Origin: a virus
Reading direction: 5' to 3' (one strand)
IMG/VR virus record: IMGVR_UViG_3300020056_000134
Location: 1-27,175 of that record
Length of the DNA: 27,175 bases
In this document: positions 709-17,006 of the stretch, piece by piece
Layout: every line of letters starts with the position of its first letter
Numbering within the stretch: the stretch's first letter is position 1
Notes under the pieces: generated by a model
Databases searched by the model: none
The model's input: the letters and a program-made list of their open reading frames with translations, nothing else
Told to the model about the DNA's origin: nothing
Translations under genes and position numbers: made by a program

Positions 709-726
709 TACTTTTATTGGCAATTG

Positions 727-735
727 TGGTATAAT
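727..735 (+). promoter_or_regulatory. Extended -10 promoter for the giant repeat protein
   Basis: TGGTATAAT, with six nucleotides (CTTAGT) before the ATG at 742. It is divergent from the promoter at 700-708, with 18 bp between the two boxes. There is no Shine-Dalgarno sequence, which fits a leaderless mRNA. The box also argues against the upstream in-frame TTG at 724, which would place the -10 inside the coding sequence. Confidence 0.7.
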
Positions 736-741
736 CTTAGT

Positions 742-3700
742 ATGCTCAACAAATTCAAACCTAGATACAAAACCAATAAAAAGATTACGGATTGGGAGCC
801 AACACCAGATTCTAAGTCTAGGACAATGGATAGGGATAAGGGTAAGTCAGGACAAGGGGGTAATTTTTGGATCAAGGCATATACGGATGTATCAAGCGAA
901 GGTGGCAGCCCAATGGGCGAGATTGGATCTAAACCAGTTGATATTGTTACTAATGAATATGGAGATACAACGTTCCACCTTTTCCGTCAGTTTAAGATGG
1001 ATTTATCTAGACAGCCAGATACACAAGCAGATTTTGAAGAAGATGAAAATGGTGTCAAATATACACAGTTCTCCAATATATCAGGTGACTTTTGTATAAC
1101 ACAAGTTAAATCTGATGGTACAAAGGGATGGGAAAAAATATATGGACTTCCTACCAATATGGATGGTGGGTATATGGAAATATCCAATGATGGATCTACC
1201 CCAGGAACATGGAGTAGCCTTTTTACATGGAAAAAGCCTGAGGTTTTTCCAGTCAGCATGTACTGGACAGAAAAAAACCAGGCAAACAGTCTTGTTTATG
1301 CAAATGGGCATATTTATTTATGTGCGGTATTAGACAGCACAGTTAGATATGACGAAGATGCAGACGATTTTAGGCCTGACTCCGAAAAAGTGGACCCACC
1401 CCTTCAAACAGTCTATCCAGATGAGTTTTTCATAGGTGTCTACGTTATAAAAATTAATGCCGATACGGGCGAGGTAGTTGACGACAACTATACTCACATT
1501 AGTATGGATATGCTTTCCCCTTCTGGCTACTACTCTAACGGTCTAAGACCTACCCCATATTCCGAAAATATGCCCATCTTTGCTTATGATAAATACCAAA
1601 ATAAAATTGTTGTTATTGTTAAACTTCAGTTAAGGGATAATTCAGGACCGTCAGGCGCAGATCAATACAGTAGGAGTAATTGGGGCGATGGTGTTTTTGA
1701 GATAGATCCTGATACTATGACCACAACAAGGTCTCAGTATTTGAATTGTCAGGCTCATCATTACGTTCTGGGTGCCCAGTCCAAAAACGTGGTTGCATTT
1801 TCTCCAACGCACAATTATGTTGTTGCTAGAACATCTGAAGCGGTCCATGCTACACGAATTGAGGGAACCAACCCACCCGACTATGTAAGAATGAAAAATG
1901 ATACGGCTATTTTTAAATTTGACAAAGACTGGAATCTGGTGGATAGAAAGCAATATGGATATCCAGACCTAGATGATCAAGGAAACTATTTTGAACCAGT
2001 AGATGGTTTTGGTAGTAACATGACGCAAGGACAAAGTAATAATCTACAAATTTTTAATCTATTTTATAGTGAGTCAAAGGACAAACTTTATTCCAGAAGC
2101 AGGGCTGGAGATGGGGGAGGAAGCAGGCAACTCAACCCATCGAAGCATGGGTATACATGGCTAGAGAACGTCGCTGGAGATTTAAATTATACATTTGAGA
2201 ATATATTTAGAATTACTGAAATTGAACCATCAGACCTTAGCGTTTCTTCTGTAAAATGGCCTCAATGGGAAGGTCCACAAGCAGATAATCAATATCCTGT
2301 CTTGAAGAATAGCAGCAGATGGAGTTCGTTCATTGGTAATACTTTTGATAGGTATAACGCCGCCGACGCGATTAGTCCAGATGGAAAGTATCTTTACTGC
2401 GCCATAGTTTCTGGTGCTCCAAATTCAAAGGAGCAACACAGAGATAACATTTTATTTTCAAATAATCAAAAACACTATTCCTATGCTCCATTTACATTAG
2501 GGACGGCTGATACCGCAAACGACCATGATCCCGAGGGCATGGCTATTGATATTATAAGATTTAATACTGAGACGGGTGAGTATGATAGGTCTTGGAGTGT
2601 AACTGGAGTTTCCCATATAGGAACGTGGCCCGGTTTTTGGAACAATATGATTTTTCCCCAACAAATTGTAACCACAGATTTGGGTTTCACTTTTAACATG
2701 TCTTCATCTGGAAATAACCCGCAGGACGGGATTTATTACGATAGATCTGGTTTAATTGGATTCACAAATGTAGATAATCCAGAAATCGAAGTATCCGCAG
2801 CGTATGTAGAAAAAAACAGAGATGAAATTGATCGTCGTGATATTGTGGGAGCGATGGTGTCTGAAAATGGTTACAATGTTTCAACATATACGGAGCCTGC
2901 TGGATGGATGAGTACAACTGAAAAATTTATGTGGGATGAGCCCGTATGGTATTGGAATGGAGACCCACCGCGATTCAATGACGCAGAGTGGAATGAGGGA
3001 ATCCTGTTTTATACATACTACTCTAGTCGCCAAACCTTAGCCGAAAAAGAAGCATATTTCAATGACCATGTACACATTAATCATAAAATGTCTGATTTTG
3101 TTGGGGAGTCTCATCAGGCGTATGATCAAGATAATTTTATTGACACAGTAGTTGAGGTAATTTTAGTTGGTAGTGAGTATGTAGTTCGAAGAACTTATCC
3201 CAAACCATTCTACAGAGGAAATAGTGGGGAAATGGTTAGCGGAGGCAACGGAGGTCTTCATGACCAAACTGCATTTATAAAGCCATATATGCCATTTACC
3301 GAAGGATTTCGTAGGATTGACCCTTCTAGTCCATACTCTAATAGTGCGCTTTTACCACCATTGCCAGAAACAGACCATCACGTTTTTTATTCGTCTAATA
3401 ACTCCCTAACGTGGGACGACCTGCCAACCCAAACTCCTGACAATGGAACTCTTGAGTTAGTTGACACAACTTTTTCAAGTTATCTGGAAGAAACGGTGTA
3501 CGGAGGCCCACTCTGGACACCAGAGTTTGGCTCTGGAGCAATAAATTTCTATAGATACAAGGCAATTTTTGATTGGGAAGATTCCGAAACGGGATCTACT
3601 GCGGAAATTCATTCAGTAGAAAGATTTGGCCTTAATAGTGTAACTGGAAAAAGAAACCAAATCAAAGAGGGTGCCTATGCTTTCACAAGTTTAAAACCGC

Positions 3701-6700
3701 TTGCCGGAAACCTTATGCATTATCATGGGCAGGATTTTATTTTACAAGGTGAAGAACACAAGTGGGATTTTTGTGGTCCAGCATTTCGCACATTAGACAC
3801 ATCCAACTTAACAAGTATGAAGGGTATGTTTATGGAGGTAAGACACGCAATGCCTGTAAGCGGACCCACCCTCTCCCTTTGGGATACTTCCAACGTTACA
3901 GACATGAGTTATGCATTTTATAATACTACCATTTATACAACCATAGAATTACTATGGGACACATCAAGCGTTACAGACATGAGTTATATGTTTGGTAGTT
4001 TTGTGGCATTGGATGCGCGAACATGGGATTTTAGCAATGTTCAAAACATGACTAGTTTTGCCTTAAATGCATCTGTGATACTTTTATCGGATACTCTTCC
4101 AACGGTGACCCTTGAATGGAGGGCAGATGCCGATGACCCCCAGGGCTATGAGGGAACATTTGAATGTAGAGAAATAGTAAACTACCTTGATAGGTGCTGG
4201 CCTGGACTTGTTAATTATACTATTTTAGGATTTGAAGATTGTGTAAACTGGATGCCTGGAAACTACACCGTTATGGTTGCCAACAGGGAGATAACCGATA
4301 GTGACTTGCCAATGTACGGTAGTGCTGGCGTACCTTCCGACACCCAACTTGAGTTGATTAACCAATATGAAACTTCAACAAGGGCTACACGATATGTTTA
4401 CAAGGCAACCTTCCCCTGGAACAATGCCACTAATTCAGTTTCCCTAGACTGGCTGGAAGATGTATTACAGTTTGGTGGAAACAGGTTTGAGGATGGTCGC
4501 GTTGCATTCTTAAACTCTCCTGCGGAATCGTTTACAGGATTTAGTAACCCAAGGTTTAGCGTGAGCAATCTAACCGACTTCACTTATATGTTCCGATACT
4601 GTAGAAACTTTAATCAAGATTTAACAAACTGGGACACCTCTAATGCTACCCAAATGGAACAGATGTTTGGCTTCTGTGATGTATTTAATGGTGATGTAAC
4701 AAACTTTGATGTATCTAATGTTACAAACATTAGCGGAATGTTCCGTGATTGTATTGCATTCAATCAAGACATTTCTGCGTGGAATACTATGAATGTTGTG
4801 AGTGCAGATCAAACCTTTAGTGGCGCATCATCATTTAACCAAGACCTGTCTGAGTGGTGTGTAAGCCTACTTGCGTCGGAGCCTGCTGACTTTGCCACAG
4901 GGACCGCATCCTGGACGTTGGGCCAGCCAGTTTGGGGTACCTGCCCACGAAACGAAAACGGTTCAGCAGGAGACGCATGGTACCATATCTTTGTTGCTAA
5001 TGGTAATGATATTAATCTACCAGTAGAAACTGACGAGGGGGTCAACATTTGTTTTGTTGACGATGTTCAAAAAGATTACGCTACTGAGGTCAAAGGCCAA
5101 ATCTTTAATGGTTCAACAATCAAGGCACAATTTGATTGGGACAACTCAAATAGAAATGTTCGCATGGACTGGGTAAATGAAATTGTTCAAGTTGGACGCA
5201 ACTCAGAAACAGGTTCTCTCAATCAGGTCAAAAATGGTAACAGAGCATTTTCCTATCTTTCTGTTGTTTCAAGCGATGCAATCAAAAACCTAGACACATC
5301 AAATCTAACCGACATGACTTATATGTTCAATACGGCAACCACCTTTAATACAGATATTAGTGGTTGGGATACCTCTAGTGTTACAGACATGATAGGCATG
5401 TTTTACTCTTGTTATAGATTCAACCAACCTATTGGCTCATGGGACGTAAGTAATTTAGCGCAGGCGGGAAGTATGTTCTACGCTTGTAGTGATTTCAATG
5501 GAGACATTTCAGGCTGGGATACATCTTCCATGACGGACATGTATAGAATGTTTGGTGCTACAAACACCTTTAATAGGGATATTTCGGGATGGGATATCTC
5601 TAATGTTACAAACATGAGTTATCTTTTCAATAATGCATCCAATTTTAACCAGGATTTGAGCCCATGGGCCGTGTGCCTTATTGAGTCAGAACCATTTAGA
5701 TTTGATGATGGTGCAAGTTCGTGGACATTGCCCAGGCCAATGTGGGGAGTTTGTGGCGAACCTGAAATAATAGTTGTTAGCAACACCCCAAGTCTAGATT
5801 GGAGCATGTTGCCAACTAATGATGCAGACAATGGTACTCTTGCGTTGATTAGTGATAATGGAGATGGAACTTACACATATAACGCAGAAATGCTGTATGA
5901 CAACTCTACTACACAAAAGAGTCTGACTTGGTTAGTAGACGTTACTCAATTTCCTTATGAACAATTTGTTGCGTCTTATGCCTTTAATGGGAGCCCCGCT
6001 ACCTCAATAACAGCACTTGATAGCCAATATATTGCAGGAGAAAATATTTCATACATGTTTGCTAACATGCCAAACTTCAATCAGGATATTTCAGGATGGG
6101 ATGTGGCTCAAACGACAAATATGGAAGGAATGTTTAATCAGTCAACTTCATTTAATCAAAATCTTAGTTCATGGTGCGTATCTGGAATAGCATCAGAGCC
6201 CACGCTATTTAGCGATGGTACGACCTCTTGGACAGAGCCAAAGCCAATTTGGGGTACTTGTGGGGGAGCGTATGAAGTGTCCAGAGTTCGTGAAGAGGAT
6301 GACTTGGTTGGACCAAATGATCAATATGCATCAACATCAGATGCGGAATCAAATGGGTGGACAATCCAGGGTGCTGCCGGTGACGACAGCACAAGTCCAA
6401 TGGATGTGCCAGCAAGTGTTGAAGGCGTTTCGTTCTTTGGAAAAATCATGCCAGCAAGTGTTAACAATGGCACAAACGGAAACATAACCTGGGTTGGTGG
6501 ATCAAGTGGTGGGCGTAGCGGAAACTTTGTAAATGACAGTTCAAGCAAAGAGTTTTGGTTGTCTCATTGGAACCAAGATAGTGCAGTCGTAAGGCAGATG
6601 CACAAGGCTGTTGGTGACGATTGGGTTGTTCGTACCGAATACAAGACTTCCTATTCTGGCAGTTATGGTATCAGCATTGAAACCACCTTTAGATCAAATG

Positions 6701-6858
6701 GTGGAATAAAGGTTGTTTACGGAACCGTCATCAGCGGCTCTATCGACATTGGCGAAACCAAGCAAGGAATTGCTTCGATGGGCGAGGCTATAGTCTCTGG
6801 ATTTGGAGACGCTGCCAACTCATTGGGTGACTTTGTTTGGGAATATGTTGTCCCATAA
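742..6858 (+). CDS. Giant putative adhesin / tail-associated protein with propeller-like and DUF285 (BspA-type) repeats
   Basis: A 2038-residue protein with no obvious signal peptide. Residues about 1-730 hold repeated strand-turn units such as VIKINADTGEVV (235), FEIDPDTMT (319), FKFDKDWNLV (391), SPDGKYLYCAI (545) and IRFNTETGEYD (604), which look like beta-propeller blades. From about residue 878 come four modules, at 878-1173, 1175-1402, 1412-1673 and 1674-1842. Each has a linker domain followed by DUF285/BspA-type repeats of the form FNQDISGWDTSSVTDMxxMF. Modules B-D close with a W..C.....SEP...W....P.WG.C signature. Residues 1843-2038 form a Gly/Ser/Asn-rich end domain. DUF285 repeats are known mainly from bacterial surface proteins. 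On a phage virion they suggest a receptor-binding or side-fibre role, but this is inference. The start at 742 follows the promoter at 727-735. Confidence 0.8.
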   Translation: MLNKFKPRYKTNKKITDWEPTPDSKSRTMDRDKGKSGQGGNFWIKAYTDVSSEGGSPMGEIGSKPVDIVTNEYGDTTFHLFRQFKMDLSRQPDTQADFEEDENGVKYTQFSNISGDFCITQVKSDGTKGWEKIYGLPTNMDGGYMEISNDGSTPGTWSSLFTWKKPEVFPVSMYWTEKNQANSLVYANGHIYLCAVLDSTVRYDEDADDFRPDSEKVDPPLQTVYPDEFFIGVYVIKINADTGEVVDDNYTHISMDMLSPSGYYSNGLRPTPYSENMPIFAYDKYQNKIVVIVKLQLRDNSGPSGADQYSRSNWGDGVFEIDPDTMTTTRSQYLNCQAHHYVLGAQSKNVVAFSPTHNYVVARTSEAVHATRIEGTNPPDYVRMKNDTAIFKFDKDWNLVDRKQYGYPDLDDQGNYFEPVDGFGSNMTQGQSNNLQIFNLFYSESKDKLYSRSRAGDGGGSRQLNPSKHGYTWLENVAGDLNYTFENIFRITEIEPSDLSVSSVKWPQWEGPQADNQYPVLKNSSRWSSFIGNTFDRYNAADAISPDGKYLYCAIVSGAPNSKEQHRDNILFSNNQKHYSYAPFTLGTADTANDHDPEGMAIDIIRFNTETGEYDRSWSVTGVSHIGTWPGFWNNMIFPQQIVTTDLGFTFNMSSSGNNPQDGIYYDRSGLIGFTNVDNPEIEVSAAYVEKNRDEIDRRDIVGAMVSENGYNVSTYTEPAGWMSTTEKFMWDEPVWYWNGDPPRFNDAEWNEGILFYTYYSSRQTLAEKEAYFNDHVHINHKMSDFVGESHQAYDQDNFIDTVVEVILVGSEYVVRRTYPKPFYRGNSGEMVSGGNGGLHDQTAFIKPYMPFTEGFRRIDPSSPYSNSALLPPLPETDHHVFYSSNNSLTWDDLPTQTPDNGTLELVDTTFSSYLEETVYGGPLWTPEFGSGAINFYRYKAIFDWEDSETGSTAEIHSVERFGLNSVTGKRNQIKEGAYAFTSLKPLAGNLMHYHGQDFILQGEEHKWDFCGPAFRTLDTSNLTSMKGMFMEVRHAMPVSGPTLSLWDTSNVTDMSYAFYNTTIYTTIELLWDTSSVTDMSYMFGSFVALDARTWDFSNVQNMTSFALNASVILLSDTLPTVTLEWRADADDPQGYEGTFECREIVNYLDRCWPGLVNYTILGFEDCVNWMPGNYTVMVANREITDSDLPMYGSAGVPSDTQLELINQYETSTRATRYVYKATFPWNNATNSVSLDWLEDVLQFGGNRFEDGRVAFLNSPAESFTGFSNPRFSVSNLTDFTYMFRYCRNFNQDLTNWDTSNATQMEQMFGFCDVFNGDVTNFDVSNVTNISGMFRDCIAFNQDISAWNTMNVVSADQTFSGASSFNQDLSEWCVSLLASEPADFATGTASWTLGQPVWGTCPRNENGSAGDAWYHIFVANGNDINLPVETDEGVNICFVDDVQKDYATEVKGQIFNGSTIKAQFDWDNSNRNVRMDWVNEIVQVGRNSETGSLNQVKNGNRAFSYLSVVSSDAIKNLDTSNLTDMTYMFNTATTFNTDISGWDTSSVTDMIGMFYSCYRFNQPIGSWDVSNLAQAGSMFYACSDFNGDISGWDTSSMTDMYRMFGATNTFNRDISGWDISNVTNMSYLFNNASNFNQDLSPWAVCLIESEPFRFDDGASSWTLPRPMWGVCGEPEIIVVSNTPSLDWSMLPTNDADNGTLALISDNGDGTYTYNAEMLYDNSTTQKSLTWLVDVTQFPYEQFVASYAFNGSPATSITALDSQYIAGENISYMFANMPNFNQDISGWDVAQTTNMEGMFNQSTSFNQNLSSWCVSGIASEPTLFSDGTTSWTEPKPIWGTCGGAYEVSRVREEDDLVGPNDQYASTSDAESNGWTIQGAAGDDSTSPMDVPASVEGVSFFGKIMPASVNNGTNGNITWVGGSSGGRSGNFVNDSSSKEFWLSHWNQDSAVVRQMHKAVGDDWVVRTEYKTSYSGSYGISIETTFRSNGGIKVVYGTVISGSIDIGETKQGIASMGEAIVSGFGDAANSLGDFVWEYVVP
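3373..6267 (+). repeat. Four tandem modules of linker domain plus DUF285-type repeats
   Basis: Modules span 3373-4260, 4264-4947, about 4975-5760 and 5761-6267. Each begins with a degenerate linker (LPT..PDNGTL.L type in modules 1 and 4, then a hydrophobic W/L..V..FG stretch). It continues into units of roughly 25 codons carrying W.TSNVT.M..MF. Module 1 is the most diverged and lacks the SEP...WG.C ending. Module 3 has the most regular units, and module 4 is the shortest. The copies are diverged at DNA level, so the duplications are not recent. Confidence 0.75.
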
Positions 6859-6965: not shown

Positions 6966-8930
6966 ATGTCATTAACAGACGACCAGGGTTTTATTAAAGA
7001 TCCCTACCGCAATTTCATCCACATCTCAAGATATGCCAGGTGGCTAGAAGCGGAGGGTAGACGAGAAACCTGGGCCGAAACTGTAGATAGATATATGACA
7101 TTCATGAAAGACTATCTTGTAACAAACTACAACTACCAAAGCAATGACAAAGTGTTTGCCAAGGTTCACAATGCTATTTTAAATCATGACGTAATGCCCA
7201 GCATGAGGGCTATCATGACCGCAGGGGCGGCTTTAGATAGAGACCACATCGCAGCATACAACTGTTCTTTTATCGCTGTAGACAGCCTCAGAGCGTTTGA
7301 CGAGGCCATGTATGTATTGATGAATGGAACAGGTGTTGGATTCTCTGTAGAGCAAAAGTATATTGACAATCTTCCAGTCATTGCTGATGACTTTTACCCA
7401 ACAGATACAACCATCGTTGTTGCAGATTCAAAGTTGGGATGGGCCAAAGCATTTAAGGAATTGATTGGTCTTCTAGTTACAGGACAGATTCCTAAGTGGG
7501 ACACTTCTCAGGTTAGGCCAGCAGGGGCAAGACTAATGACCTTTGGCGGTAGAGCGTCAGGGCCAGAGCCACTAGAAGATCTATTTAGATTCACCGTAGA
7601 GACTTTTGAGATTGCCAAGGGTCGCAGACTAAAGCCAATTGAGGCCCATGATTTAATGTGTAAGGTAGGCGAGGTCGTAGTTGTTGGCGGTGTTCGCCGT
7701 TCTGCATTGATTTCTCTATCTAATTTAGATGACTTTGAAATGGCTAAGGCCAAGTCAGGATCATGGTGGGAAACTGATGGACAGAGGGCACTTGCAAATA
7801 ACTCTGCTGTATATAACAATAAGCCTAATACTGCCCAGTTCCTAAGAGAGTGGAGAAACCTTTACGAGTCAAAGTCTGGCGAGCGCGGCATCTACAACCT
7901 AGACTCAGTTCGCAGACACATTGATACCTTTGATCGTCGTGACTCCTCTAAGGTTGCAGGAACCAACCCATGTGGCGAGATTCTTTTGCGTGCAAACGAA
8001 TTTTGTAATTTGACTGAGGTGGTTATTTCTGCTGACGACACAGAGGAAACTCTAAGAGAGAAGGTCAAGGTCGCATCCATTCTTGGAACGTGGCAGTCAA
8101 CACTAACTAACTTTAAATACATTCGTAAGTCATGGAGAGACAACTGCGAAGAAGAGAGATTGCTAGGGGTATCCCTAACAGGAATCTATGGCAACCCATT
8201 GACAATGGCAGGATCAGGATTGCCAGAATTTCTTTCATCATTGAGAGAGTTGGCAGTTTCCTCCAACAAGAAAGAGGCAGACAAGTTGGGAATTGAGCCT
8301 TCCGTTGCAGTTACAACTGTCAAGCCCTCAGGAACCGTATCACAATTAACGGGCGTGTCTAGCGGTATCCACCCCTGGTATTCAGAATATTACATCAGAA
8401 CAGTTCGTGCAGACAACAAAGATCCTATGACTCAGTTCCTAAAGGACTTTGGTGTTCCTAACGAGCCAGATGTTATGAAGCCAGACGCTACCACAGTATT
8501 CTCATTCCCCATTGCAGCACCAAAGAGGGCTGTTGTGACCAAAGATATTTCTGCTATTGATCACCTTGAGTTGTGGAAGACATACAGGGAGAACTGGACA
8601 GAGCATAACCCCTCAGTAACTATCAACGTTCAAGAAGATGAGTGGCTTGACGTTGGCGCATGGGTATACAGAAACTTTGACAAAATTGGTGGAGTTTCTT
8701 TCCTACCAGCCGTAGAGCATAGTTACAAGCAGGCACCATATCAGGAAATCACGAAGGAAGAGTACGAGGCCGCTGTCAAGGCTATGCCCAACAGAATCCC
8801 CTGGGAATCACTTCCCCTATACGAGACAGAGGACGGAACCAAGGGCTCTCAGGAACTTGCCTGCGTCGCAGGAGCAGAATCTTGCGATGTTGTAGATTTG
8901 ACTGAAAACGTGGCTGAGCGTTTGGTATAA
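6966..8930 (+). CDS. nrdJ: Adenosylcobalamin-dependent (class II) ribonucleoside-triphosphate reductase, monomeric type
   Basis: Reduces ribonucleotides to deoxyribonucleotides, supplying DNA precursors for phage replication. The 654 residues resemble the Lactobacillus leichmannii enzyme family, whose catalytic residues are C119, N406-C408-E410, C419 and a C-terminal C731/C736 pair. The counterparts here are C100 (AYNCSF), N334-P-C336-G-E338, C347 (EFCNLT, with the same 11-residue spacing) and C633/C640. The substrate-loop motifs GTGVGFSVE (121-129) and VKPSGTVSQ (452-460) are present. The protein is about 85 residues shorter than the 739-residue L. leichmannii enzyme. Six residues separate the terminal cysteines instead of four. 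The gene has its own promoter and ribosome binding site and lies between structural genes. Its stop codon lies inside the next gene's -10 box. Host B12 would be required. Confidence 0.92.
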   Translation: MSLTDDQGFIKDPYRNFIHISRYARWLEAEGRRETWAETVDRYMTFMKDYLVTNYNYQSNDKVFAKVHNAILNHDVMPSMRAIMTAGAALDRDHIAAYNCSFIAVDSLRAFDEAMYVLMNGTGVGFSVEQKYIDNLPVIADDFYPTDTTIVVADSKLGWAKAFKELIGLLVTGQIPKWDTSQVRPAGARLMTFGGRASGPEPLEDLFRFTVETFEIAKGRRLKPIEAHDLMCKVGEVVVVGGVRRSALISLSNLDDFEMAKAKSGSWWETDGQRALANNSAVYNNKPNTAQFLREWRNLYESKSGERGIYNLDSVRRHIDTFDRRDSSKVAGTNPCGEILLRANEFCNLTEVVISADDTEETLREKVKVASILGTWQSTLTNFKYIRKSWRDNCEEERLLGVSLTGIYGNPLTMAGSGLPEFLSSLRELAVSSNKKEADKLGIEPSVAVTTVKPSGTVSQLTGVSSGIHPWYSEYYIRTVRADNKDPMTQFLKDFGVPNEPDVMKPDATTVFSFPIAAPKRAVVTKDISAIDHLELWKTYRENWTEHNPSVTINVQEDEWLDVGAWVYRNFDKIGGVSFLPAVEHSYKQAPYQEITKEEYEAAVKAMPNRIPWESLPLYETEDGTKGSQELACVAGAESCDVVDLTENVAERLV

Positions 8931-14413: not shown

Positions 14414-15697
14414 ATGGATATAAACAAGGCAACTTGGTCTATGGACAAAAGCAACATGCGTATGTCAATGCCCATCTCAAAGGTGGACGTTGAGAAAAGA
14501 ACCGTGTCTGGTTTTGCTACCCTAGATAATATCGACAAGCAGGGTGACATTGTTCCTGCTGACGCAAGTCTAAAAGCATTTGAAAGATTTCGCGGTAACA
14601 TCCGTGAAATGCACCAGCCCATTGCCGCTGGCAAATTAGTATCCTTTAGAGAAGAGAAGTACTACGATGCAGAAACAGCAAAGGAGTACAGCGGAATTTT
14701 TGTTTCTGCTTACATCTCTAAGGGAGCGCAAGATACATGGGAGAAAGTTCTTGACGGCACCCTGACTGGTTTTTCCATTGGTGGAGAAATCAATAAGTCA
14801 GAGGATGCATACGACGATAACGTTGGAGAAACAATTAGAGTCATTAAAGATTACGACTTGATCGAACTATCAATTGTTGACAATCCAGCAAATCAATACG
14901 CAAACGTTTTCAGTATTGAGAAAGGCCAAGCATCAGGCTTGGCTGTCGATACACAGATTGAAAGCATTTACTATTGTGCTGATGACAACTTGGTTCAGTT
15001 AAGTCAAGACTCAAACATTTCTTGCCCCAAGTGTGACAGCGGCATGGAAAGTATCGGGTTCGTTGAAAGCAACGATGTAGATAAGGCTGATGTAATTAAA
15101 TCAATTCTTTCTACTGTAAAAAGTGAAAAGGAGGTAAGCAAGATGGAAGAAAACACAACAGAAACTGTCGAAAAGTCCGACGAGGCTGAGGCCCCAGTTG
15201 CTGAGGTCGAAAAGGCTGAAGAGTCTCCCGCTGCTGAGGTAGAAGAAACTGCCAAGGCTGAGGAAGAGGCTGAGGTCGAAAAGGCTGAGGAAGAGGAAGA
15301 GGCAGTAGAGAAGGCTGAAGATGCAGAGGAAGCACCTTCACAAGAAGCCGATGTTGAAAAAGCAGATACTTCTGCTGATGAAGTTATTTCAGAAATTGCC
15401 GAAACTACCAAGGCATCTATGGAAGAAATGACAAAGACCGTATCCATTCTCGCTGACACCGTTAAGGCTCTCAACTCAAAGGTAGAAGAACTTAACAAGC
15501 AGGTCACGGGTGTTAGATCAGAAATGGCAGAGGACAAATCAGAGTTTGGAAAGCGCGTTACTGCTGTAGAAAAAGAAACCGCTTTTCGTAAGTCTGGCGA
15601 TCTTGGTCAGGTCGTCCAGGAGCCTATCAAGGTAGAAAAGGCTCGCGCACAATCACTATGGGGCGGTCGTTTCCTCACTACCGACCTATTTAACTAA
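14414..15697 (+). CDS. Prohead serine protease (XkdF / S78-like) fused to an acidic scaffold domain
   Basis: A 427-residue protein. Residues about 18-170 form the protease domain. VSGFATLDNIDKQGDIV (31-47) is a family hallmark, H67 (REMHQP) and S121 (LTGFSIGG) are the likely catalytic pair by analogy with HK97 protease H65/S114, and ELSIVDNPAN (151-160) is typical. A linker follows with C188, C204 and C207, resembling a partial zinc knuckle. Residues 244-340 are acidic and repetitive (EVEKAEE units). Residues about 325-390 form a predicted coiled coil, and the protein ends in SLWGGRFLTTDLFN. The layout is a protease followed by a scaffold, as in lambda C/Nu3. A strong internal ribosome binding site likely makes the scaffold on its own as well. 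The protease would remove scaffold during capsid maturation. Confidence 0.87.
   Translation: MDINKATWSMDKSNMRMSMPISKVDVEKRTVSGFATLDNIDKQGDIVPADASLKAFERFRGNIREMHQPIAAGKLVSFREEKYYDAETAKEYSGIFVSAYISKGAQDTWEKVLDGTLTGFSIGGEINKSEDAYDDNVGETIRVIKDYDLIELSIVDNPANQYANVFSIEKGQASGLAVDTQIESIYYCADDNLVQLSQDSNISCPKCDSGMESIGFVESNDVDKADVIKSILSTVKSEKEVSKMEENTTETVEKSDEAEAPVAEVEKAEESPAAEVEETAKAEEEAEVEKAEEEEEAVEKAEDAEEAPSQEADVEKADTSADEVISEIAETTKASMEEMTKTVSILADTVKALNSKVEELNKQVTGVRSEMAEDKSEFGKRVTAVEKETAFRKSGDLGQVVQEPIKVEKARAQSLWGGRFLTTDLFN
15128..15135 (+). promoter_or_regulatory. Internal ribosome binding site for a separate scaffold protein
   Basis: AAGGAGGT, a near-perfect Shine-Dalgarno sequence, stands 7 nt before an in-frame ATG at 15143, inside the protease/scaffold gene. 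It is as strong as the site before the capsid gene and far better than expected by chance at this spacing. It marks the point where acidic scaffold sequence begins. Confidence 0.75.
15143..15697 (+). CDS. Nested scaffold protein (in-frame internal start)
   Basis: This is the C-terminal 184 residues of the protease/scaffold gene, predicted to be made separately from ATG 15143 (Met244 of the long form) using the Shine-Dalgarno at 15128-15135. It opens with MEENTTETVEKSDEAEAP, continues through Glu/Lys/Ala repeats and then a heptad-like helix (ETTKASMEEMTKTVSILADTV). It closes with a short hydrophobic end, SLWGGRFLTTDLFN, which could contact capsid subunits. High acidity, helices and the absence of a catalytic domain fit an assembly scaffold. 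The arrangement parallels lambda Nu3 inside gene C. Separate expression is inferred from the ribosome binding site and is not shown directly. Confidence 0.68.
   Translation: MEENTTETVEKSDEAEAPVAEVEKAEESPAAEVEETAKAEEEAEVEKAEEEEEAVEKAEDAEEAPSQEADVEKADTSADEVISEIAETTKASMEEMTKTVSILADTVKALNSKVEELNKQVTGVRSEMAEDKSEFGKRVTAVEKETAFRKSGDLGQVVQEPIKVEKARAQSLWGGRFLTTDLFN
15200..15288 (+). repeat. Direct repeat in the acidic scaffold region
   Basis: The 20-base unit GCTGAGGTCGAAAAGGCTGA occurs exactly at 15200-15219 and 15269-15288, encoding AEVEKAE both times. Shorter variants of GAGGCTGAGG/GAAGCTGAA surround it. The region is a low-complexity Glu/Ala/Lys tract that could change length by slippage or recombination. 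Confidence 0.85.
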
Positions 15698-15724: not shown

Positions 15725-16951
15725 ATGTCAGAAGAGCAGATTGTAGAAAAGAATCAGCCAAGTGACGGCGGGATTGGAGATCCAAACCCAGGTCACTACC
15801 AGGCTCAAGGTGCAATTGGTAACATCCATCCACCAAACGACGTTCAGACCCCACCAGGGTCAGTTGTTCCCGATGGGAGTTACGATGGTACTGTAGATCC
15901 CGCTTATGGCTCCTACGGGGACGGTTCCCCATGGGGCGATATGGGTGTACTCCCTAATACTGCCGTCATGGGCACGAACGATCTTAACGTTAGTGTTAAC
16001 CCAAGCGGCGTTCCAGGAGGCGGTATCCTAAACCCTGAGCAGGCTCAGCGTTTCATTGATTATGTTTGGGATGCTACCGTTCTCGCACAGGACGGTCGTC
16101 GCGTTACCATGCGTGCAAACACAATGGAAATTGAGAAGGTTAATGTTGGTGAGCGTGTTATCCGCGCTGCTTCACAGGGTATCGGTGATTACCTAAACGC
16201 TGGTGCAGCATTCACCAAGGTTGAACTAACCACCAAGAAGATCCGTTTGGATTGGGAGGTTACAACTGAGGCATTGGAGGACAACATTGAAGGAGGTGCT
16301 TTTGAGGACCACCTTGTTCGTCTAATGACCAACGCATTTGCTAATGACCTAGAGGATCTAGCCATTAACGGTGAAGGAGAGGGCTCATCCGATCCCTTCC
16401 TATCCATCATGGAGGGCTTCGTTCCCCAGGTCAAGAACAGCGGTGAGGCACACGAGGCAGTAGTTTCTGTTAGCAATAACGAGTGGATTCCAGAGGTAAT
16501 GCAGGAGATCATCTATGCAATGCCACGACGCTACCGTGCTATCAAGAACAACCTTCGCTTCTATGCCGGAACTGATGCATTCGCAGGTATCGTTGCACAT
16601 AACGGCACACTCGCTGACGCAATTGCAGAGGCATTCTATCCAAGAGTTCGTGGTACTGAGCGTAACACAAACCGTTACCTAGATGGTGTGGATCAGACCT
16701 TCGGGCCTTCCGCAACAACCCGCGTTCTTGGTGTAGACGTTCTAGAGGTTCCTTACTACCCAGAGGGTTATGTTGACCTAACATTCCCCTCCAACCGTAT
16801 TTGGGGCTTCCAGCGCGATATCACGGTCAACCGTGAGTACGTTGCCAAGAAGGACACAATTGAGTACACAGTCTACGTTCGTTTCGGGATTGCCTGGGAA
16901 GAACTTGACGCTGTTGCTTACGCTGATGCATCTGGTGGGGCTACCTCATAA
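15725..16951 (+). CDS. Major capsid protein (HK97 fold)
   Basis: A 408-residue shell subunit. The start at 15725 is set by AGGAGGTGA at 15708-15716, 8 nt upstream. The in-frame GTG at 15713 lies inside that site and is rejected. Residues 1-80 are Gly/Pro/Asp-rich and low in helix (for example GYSDG-like and PPND stretches). HK97-fold sequence follows, with a P-domain region LTTKKIRLDWEVTTEALED, a long-helix region FEDHLVRLMTNAFANDLEDLAINGEG, and C-terminal strands IWGFQRDITVNREYVAKKDTIEYTVYVRFGIAWEELDAVAY in continuous order. Only one of about 20 arginine codons is AGA; the rest are CGN, which marks a highly expressed gene. A hairpin terminator follows 20 bases after the stop. Confidence 0.9.
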   Translation: MSEEQIVEKNQPSDGGIGDPNPGHYQAQGAIGNIHPPNDVQTPPGSVVPDGSYDGTVDPAYGSYGDGSPWGDMGVLPNTAVMGTNDLNVSVNPSGVPGGGILNPEQAQRFIDYVWDATVLAQDGRRVTMRANTMEIEKVNVGERVIRAASQGIGDYLNAGAAFTKVELTTKKIRLDWEVTTEALEDNIEGGAFEDHLVRLMTNAFANDLEDLAINGEGEGSSDPFLSIMEGFVPQVKNSGEAHEAVVSVSNNEWIPEVMQEIIYAMPRRYRAIKNNLRFYAGTDAFAGIVAHNGTLADAIAEAFYPRVRGTERNTNRYLDGVDQTFGPSATTRVLGVDVLEVPYYPEGYVDLTFPSNRIWGFQRDITVNREYVAKKDTIEYTVYVRFGIAWEELDAVAYADASGGATS

Positions 16952-16970
16952 GATCATCACACGCATTAGT

Positions 16971-17006
16971 GGGGACGGGAAATATCTCGTCCCCATTAGT
17001 GTTTTT
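16971..17006 (+). terminator. Intrinsic terminator after the capsid gene
   Basis: GGGGACGGGA (16971-16980) pairs with TCTCGTCCCC (16985-16994) to give a 10-bp stem with one G-T pair and an AATA loop. A T run (17002-17006) follows after ATTAGTG. The gap before the T run makes it imperfect, so partial read-through is likely. Confidence 0.65.

Follow-up and report, generated by a model that had tools for sequence, protein, structure and literature searches.

A predicted scaffold gene nested in frame within the prohead protease gene of a phage and its relatives

The window analysed here, all 27,175 nucleotides (nt; positions 1 to 27,175) of IMG/VR virus record IMGVR_UViG_3300020056_000134, belongs to a phage of actinobacterial type in which, as in its relatives, one gene most likely gives two proteins. 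Analysis of this gene and its homologues makes it highly probable that a prohead protease gene with two in-frame starts encodes both a protease-scaffold of 427 residues and a free scaffold of 184 residues, the second translated from an internal ribosome-binding site (RBS) at the junction of the two parts. The elements of this arrangement, all on the + strand, are:

14414..15697, +: full-length open reading frame (ORF), prohead protease fused to scaffold; 427 residues, 47.0 kDa
15127..15135, +: internal Shine-Dalgarno sequence (SD) AAAGGAGGT of the nested product, identified by pairing, single occurrence and conservation
15143..15697, +: nested in-frame gene, predicted scaffold; 184 residues, 20.1 kDa, isoelectric point (pI) 4.3

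The internal start and its predicted strength

Positions 15128-15135 read AAGGAGGT and are followed by a 7-nt spacer (AAGCAAG) and by ATG 15143, which lies in the frame of ORF 14414-15697; initiation at this codon (Met244) yields 184 residues, and the nested frame and the 427-residue ORF have a common stop. An earlier note on this DNA had placed the SD, the spacing and the ATG at these positions, and re-checking found its coordinates exact. The arrangement AAGGAGGT-N4-9-ATG occurs once in the window, compared with 0.09 occurrences expected from shuffles. The predicted pairing of the internal SD with the 16S ribosomal RNA tail amounts to -13.6 kcal/mol (RNA duplex energy), and only two of the 867 ATG or GTG codons of the + strand reach at least this strength: the internal start itself and the start of the major capsid protein (MCP; -16.2 kcal/mol). 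When the window gene is taken alone and the amino acids from KEV to M are fixed, synonymous-codon shuffling recreates an equally good site in about 18% of trials. The window sequence by itself is only suggestive evidence for an internal start; the internal site is beyond chance because it is conserved across relatives.

The full-length start of the window has a weak SD (TAGGA, -4.0 kcal/mol), and that start is weak in nearly all relatives. Averaged over clusters of relatives, SD energies are -2.8 kcal/mol at the full-length start, -13.0 at the internal start, -15.4 at the MCP start and -3.5 at other in-frame ATGs, and the internal start outpairs the full-length start in 55 of 55 cases. From a weak full-length start combined with a strong internal one, few protease-bearing molecules and an excess of free scaffold are predicted. 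Transcription of the short product from an internal promoter in the window was considered and rejected: a consensus scan gave no more than shuffles do, and no hit near 15143 on the + strand. Some freshwater relatives contain the promoter look-alikes TTGATA and TACAAT, of which TACAAT is not conserved.

Conservation of the site among relatives

Relatives were drawn from GenBank phages (of Streptomyces and Rhodococcus), IMG/VR contigs and GTDB genomes. The first set comprises 100 intact homologues forming 58 clusters at 85% identity; locus L051, with a stop in the protease domain, was left out. The relatives are not phylogenetically independent, so that counts refer to clusters rather than to events; least affected by kinship are the difference in SD register, the changes counted by parsimony, and the clades that lie far off (Rhodococcus and L106-like).

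A strong SD with an in-frame start at the same junction is present in 100 of 100 first-set genes, from freshwater contigs and from Streptomyces and Rhodococcus phages alike; the start codon (ATG in 83, GTG in 17) lies 5-11 nt past the SD in every one. The SD stands in two registers relative to the reading frame, AAG GAG GNN (80 loci) and GGA GGT or GGA GTA (20 loci), and therefore it is the nucleotides, not the amino acids, that are conserved. Among 50 freshwater clusters, the first SD codon is AAG in 46, GAG in three and CAG in one; the second is GAG in all 50, whereas in the rest of these genes GAG makes up 33% of the glutamate codons; and the third invariably has G in first place, whether the residue is V, E, D, A or G. 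On a tree from which the SD columns were excluded, Fitch counting finds no synonymous changes in the Lys and Glu columns of the SD, compared with mean counts of about 11-17 for conserved columns over most of the protease domain. The conservation of the SD at synonymous positions that the earlier note had proposed as a check was thus found, and it extends to non-synonymous positions and to two registers. Further sets agree: most loci of the L106-like clade (second set) have AAGGAGGT, 6 nt and ATG, and in a third set, partly overlapping the second, GGRGG with ATG is found in 62 of 63 loci.

There is next to no likelihood that amino-acid constraint alone produced the SD-like string. With residues fixed, synonymous shuffling does recreate the site in many freshwater genes taken singly, in about 5-40% of trials, as such an origin would predict; however, the same shuffle gives it in 0-0.7% for Streptomyces phages with GTG starts, the residues vary by clade (KEV, KEE, KEA, KED, KEG, EGG, KGG) over constant nucleotides, and the absence of synonymous change at the SD codons contrasts with about 15 changes per codon elsewhere on the tree. 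Judged from these alignments, the SD is under selection at the nucleotide level.

Two other functions for a conserved SD were weighed against initiation. In some genes, dnaX and prfB among them, an internal SD stimulates frameshifting, and this precedent favours a programmed-frameshift stimulator; nevertheless, the other + strand frames contain no ORF of at least 60 residues over 15143-15697, and the conserved feature is the spacing to an in-frame start codon. Frameshifting was ruled out for lack of an alternative-frame ORF, and we accord it scarcely any probability. A translational pause between domains, aiding folding of the protease, would leave the scaffold solely as a domain of the 427-residue fusion, as in gpO of phage P2. 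Pause sites have sometimes been proposed at domain boundaries, where this site lies, and P2 is reported to encode protease and scaffold in one gene (PMC8508860). This explanation is nonetheless improbable, because pausing needs no start codon, whereas one is kept within the 5-11 nt range throughout the first set even through M-to-V (ATG/GTG) swaps; moreover, the SD is as strong as that of a highly expressed gene, while the fusion's own start is weak.

Several observations weigh against an internally initiated scaffold. The unpaired fraction of the RBS averages 0.53 at the internal start versus 0.45 elsewhere and is 0.38 in the window; RBS accessibility is weak evidence for the internal start. 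Within the L106-like clade, the loci L170-L178 and L180 form a subclade whose SD reads GGGGGT, a synonymous variant that is weaker, with pairing retained. In L209 of the third set (gene from 587) the SD is present and AGG replaces ATG, and in L195 a stop (near 3861) stands ahead of the ATG, amid three changes near the contig end. The stop in L195 is probably a sequence error, because the contig end is near and the internal site is intact in L185 and L206, whose protease part is identical in protein to that of L195; a natural split of the gene was rejected on the same grounds. Finally, the 184-residue product is considered a probable scaffold from its position, its composition and a predicted helix, not from homology to any characterised scaffold.

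Overall, what the sequences themselves show is a pair of starts with their predicted strengths, and selection acting on the SD and start codon of the internal one. The earlier note's expectation of two products from one frame draws support from the conservation of both SD and start codon. On this evidence, the nested arrangement is family-wide, and it lacks annotation in the records examined; a search of openly available papers found no description of a nested start in these phages.

The predicted products, the head-gene cluster and RNA structures

The gene and its downstream neighbour contain the following further features, all on the + strand:

14444..14884, +: protease domain, residues 11-157, herpesvirus-protease-like fold, Peptidase S78 (Pfam and fold match)
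14975..15034, +: zinc-ribbon-like segment between protease and scaffold (invariant Cys188, Cys204, Cys207)
15143..15370, +: acidic, disordered, repeat-rich scaffold region with VEK[AS] motifs (predicted local distance difference test score, pLDDT, ~30; repeats; motif count)
15371..15592, +: single long helix, residues 320-393, predicted coiled coil (AlphaFold2 model)
15578..15673, +: C-terminal tail TA..KSGD(L/V)G ... WGG.F (alignments A1, A2)
15597..15615, +: conserved RNA hairpin within the scaffold 3' end, 7 pairs, covarying (alignment A4)
15725..16951, +: MCP, 408 residues, from ATG 15725 with the strongest SD in the window, AGGAGGTGA

The protease part matches PF04586 (Peptidase_S78) over residues 105-166 with 30.6 bits against a gathering cut-off of 21 bits (E 4.5e-7), and PF14550 (Peptidase_S78_2/XkdF) with 21.9 bits, below the cut-off of 24; the entire 427-residue protein matches the head maturation protease phrog_9427 (E 1e-122). 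An AlphaFold2 model (mean pLDDT 62; protease domain 70-88) resembles T4 gp21 (5jbl) with Z 11.9 and a root-mean-square deviation of 3.1 over 131 residues, the next row having Z 4.1; Foldseek returned no match to the model with E below 0.001. The label 'XkdF-type' given in the earlier note is therefore not retained, PF04586 being the family that passes its cut-off and T4 gp21 the fold; its contrast with a ClpP-like protease holds, because the Pfam protease matches of the protein are to S78 and S78_2 only, without an S49/ClpP-like domain. His67 and Ser121, candidate catalytic residues, are invariant in alignments A1 and A2. The three cysteines of the zinc-ribbon-like segment, which is part of the full-length product only, are invariant in all ten relatives of alignment A1, Rhodococcus phages included. 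In the relative Polewnik the ORF has 594 residues.

Beyond the zinc-ribbon-like segment, the model has a helix (224-240) that is the last of the protease part, then the disordered acidic stretch 241-318, the long helix of 74 residues, and, after residue 393, a tail that is disordered in the model yet conserved in sequence. Met244 falls exactly on the domain boundary of the model (residue 240/241), bearing out the earlier note's location of the start at the protease/scaffold junction. The nested part has a pI of about 4.2-4.3 across relatives. Six VEK-A/S motifs occur in the window scaffold (15143-15370 and 15632-15643), and a looser form of the motif is about threefold denser in the scaffold than in the protease (1.41 versus 0.42 per 100 residues). 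Similar (V/I)EK-A/N motifs were seen near MCP N-termini. The presence of VEK-type motifs in both places suggests a cleavage motif of the protease, and those of the scaffold are putative cleavage sites.

In annotated relatives the gene order is portal, sometimes a small protein, protease/scaffold, and an MCP of about 331 residues. The loci examined list a capsid maturation protease and no scaffold gene, and no other scaffold candidate was found between protease and MCP. Distant S78 proteases of HK97/T5-like phages are stand-alone proteins of about 203-229 residues, encoded beside MCPs of 404-470 residues; given the MCPs of about 331 residues in the annotated relatives, this lineage needs a scaffold from elsewhere. 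The simplest reading is that the scaffold was joined to the protease and given a start of its own. The MCP of the window, at 408 residues compared with about 331 in Streptomyces phages, has a variable N-terminal extension rich in Gly, Pro and Asn (15725-16010), and MCP length varies among freshwater relatives.

It is unlikely that the short protein is made for another role, as a decoration protein, an internal head protein or a regulator of the protease. Such a role would accord with the lack of direct homology to a known scaffold: comparison of the nested part with PDB sequences gave generic coiled-coil matches only, viral spike proteins among them, and these were dismissed as generic. The product is, however, acidic and helical, it is encoded directly before the MCP gene in a region offering no other candidate, and the pairing of stand-alone S78 relatives with longer MCPs leaves this lineage, with MCPs of about 331 residues in its annotated relatives, in need of a scaffold.

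For the reading of the short protein as a free scaffold, we infer its production, excess, capsid binding and cleavage to proceed as follows. Ribosomes initiating at 14414 with a weak SD would make few copies of the 427-residue chain of S78/T4 gp21-like protease, zinc-ribbon-like segment and scaffold, and independent initiation at ATG 15143 with its near-perfect SD would make many copies of the 184-residue scaffold. Because both proteins have the same C-terminus, their common tail is probably the capsid-binding end, through which the few molecules that bear the protease would be recruited to a core consisting largely of free scaffold. Once assembly is complete, cleavage by the protease would let the scaffold leave, and the recurring VEK-A/S motifs are possible places for the cuts.

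Synonymous change is low also at the 3' end of the gene, where the 15597-15615 hairpin (GCGATCT..AGATCGT type) is shared by the window with almost every freshwater relative. In the freshwater relatives of alignment A4, 99.2% of cells are paired, with both-sided changes at three pairs; in 500 shuffles neither this percentage nor the score for covariation was reached, and sliding the structure leaves at most 49% paired. Stems like it, in shifted register, were seen in single Streptomyces phage sequences, and a possible further stem, TATGGGGCGG...CCGACCTAT, lies at the extreme 3' end of the gene (window 15657-15689) and is conserved in freshwater relatives. A second, two-tier hairpin formed by the nearly invariant TTCTTAGTTGATAGTGCNAAAGGCATTA precedes the internal ATG by about 20-60 nt in most freshwater relatives (alignment A3; L042, L036, L054 and other loci) and ends a few nt before the internal SD. 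It is absent from the window and its subclade; 100% of its cells are paired in 37 freshwater loci, with one-sided changes only, and therefore shuffles cannot separate it from sequence conservation. An Rfam search with both hairpins matched no family. The embedded covarying hairpin suggests additional control of head-protein ratios, and conserved hairpins combined with the internal start might conceivably regulate the ratio of protease to scaffold to capsid protein; such control is a guess that we regard as rather less probable than its absence.

Elsewhere in the window, a strong terminator-like hairpin (16963-17002; 18 pairs, then T residues) lies just past the MCP gene. An ORF of 2044 residues (724-6858) has many repeats of the NMSxMFxxCxxFNQDLSxWDTSNVTDM type, DUF285/BspA-like by eye, and is probably a tail or receptor-binding protein, and an ORF of 654 residues that is ribonucleotide-reductase-like by eye (6966-8930) lies amid structural genes.

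Comparison with known systems

The proposed arrangement is that of lambda C/Nu3, in which, partly according to PMC8508860 and partly as general background, the scaffold frame occupies the 3' portion of the protease gene in the same register, starts independently and yields the same C-terminus, between the portal and MCP genes. The likeness to lambda recorded in the earlier note is sustained by a shared frame and stop and by an internal start with its own conserved RBS. Unlike lambda C, a ClpP/S49-like serine protease, the protease here is a Peptidase S78 with a T4 gp21-like fold, followed by a zinc-ribbon-like segment and an acidic VEKA-rich region. From the sequences compared, this is a lambda C/Nu3-like arrangement on an S78/herpesvirus-type protease, and the layout would thus exist also on that type of protease. 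A large group of actinobacterial phages, Stanwilliamsviridae included, would thereby gain the scaffold gene that had been missing for them; 127 Streptomyces phage records match the protease.

The Mu protease belongs to a different family from the S78 protease here. The proposed arrangement would otherwise work like Mu I/Z. The Mu arrangement, with a putative SD in the Mu-like phage PaMx73, was proposed by similar reasoning, and the portion of PMC4378225 drawn on here reports no conservation analysis of comparable depth.

In HK97 and T5, the capsid protein itself supplies the scaffold as its N-terminal domain (PMC10275583), and the stand-alone S78 proteases beside longer MCPs are in keeping with this. 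Heads of this type likewise have a Peptidase S78 protease encoded beside the portal and MCP genes; in contrast to their delta-domain scaffolding, the protease here has a C-terminal helix, the MCPs of annotated relatives have about 331 residues, and the N-terminus of the window MCP is a variable Gly/Pro-rich extension. Among solved structures, T4 gp21 comes nearest in fold to the protease domain (Z 11.9), and T4 has a separate protease gene, with its scaffold genes elsewhere.

The nearest conceptual parallel is herpesvirus UL26/UL26.5, which has a protease of the same broad fold class and a scaffold nested in frame at its C-terminal end, with a common capsid-binding tail. The short UL26.5 product derives from a separate transcript, whereas the short product predicted here would come from an internal RBS on one mRNA. 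A bacterial counterpart of the UL26/UL26.5 layout would thereby become testable in cultivable Streptomyces phages.
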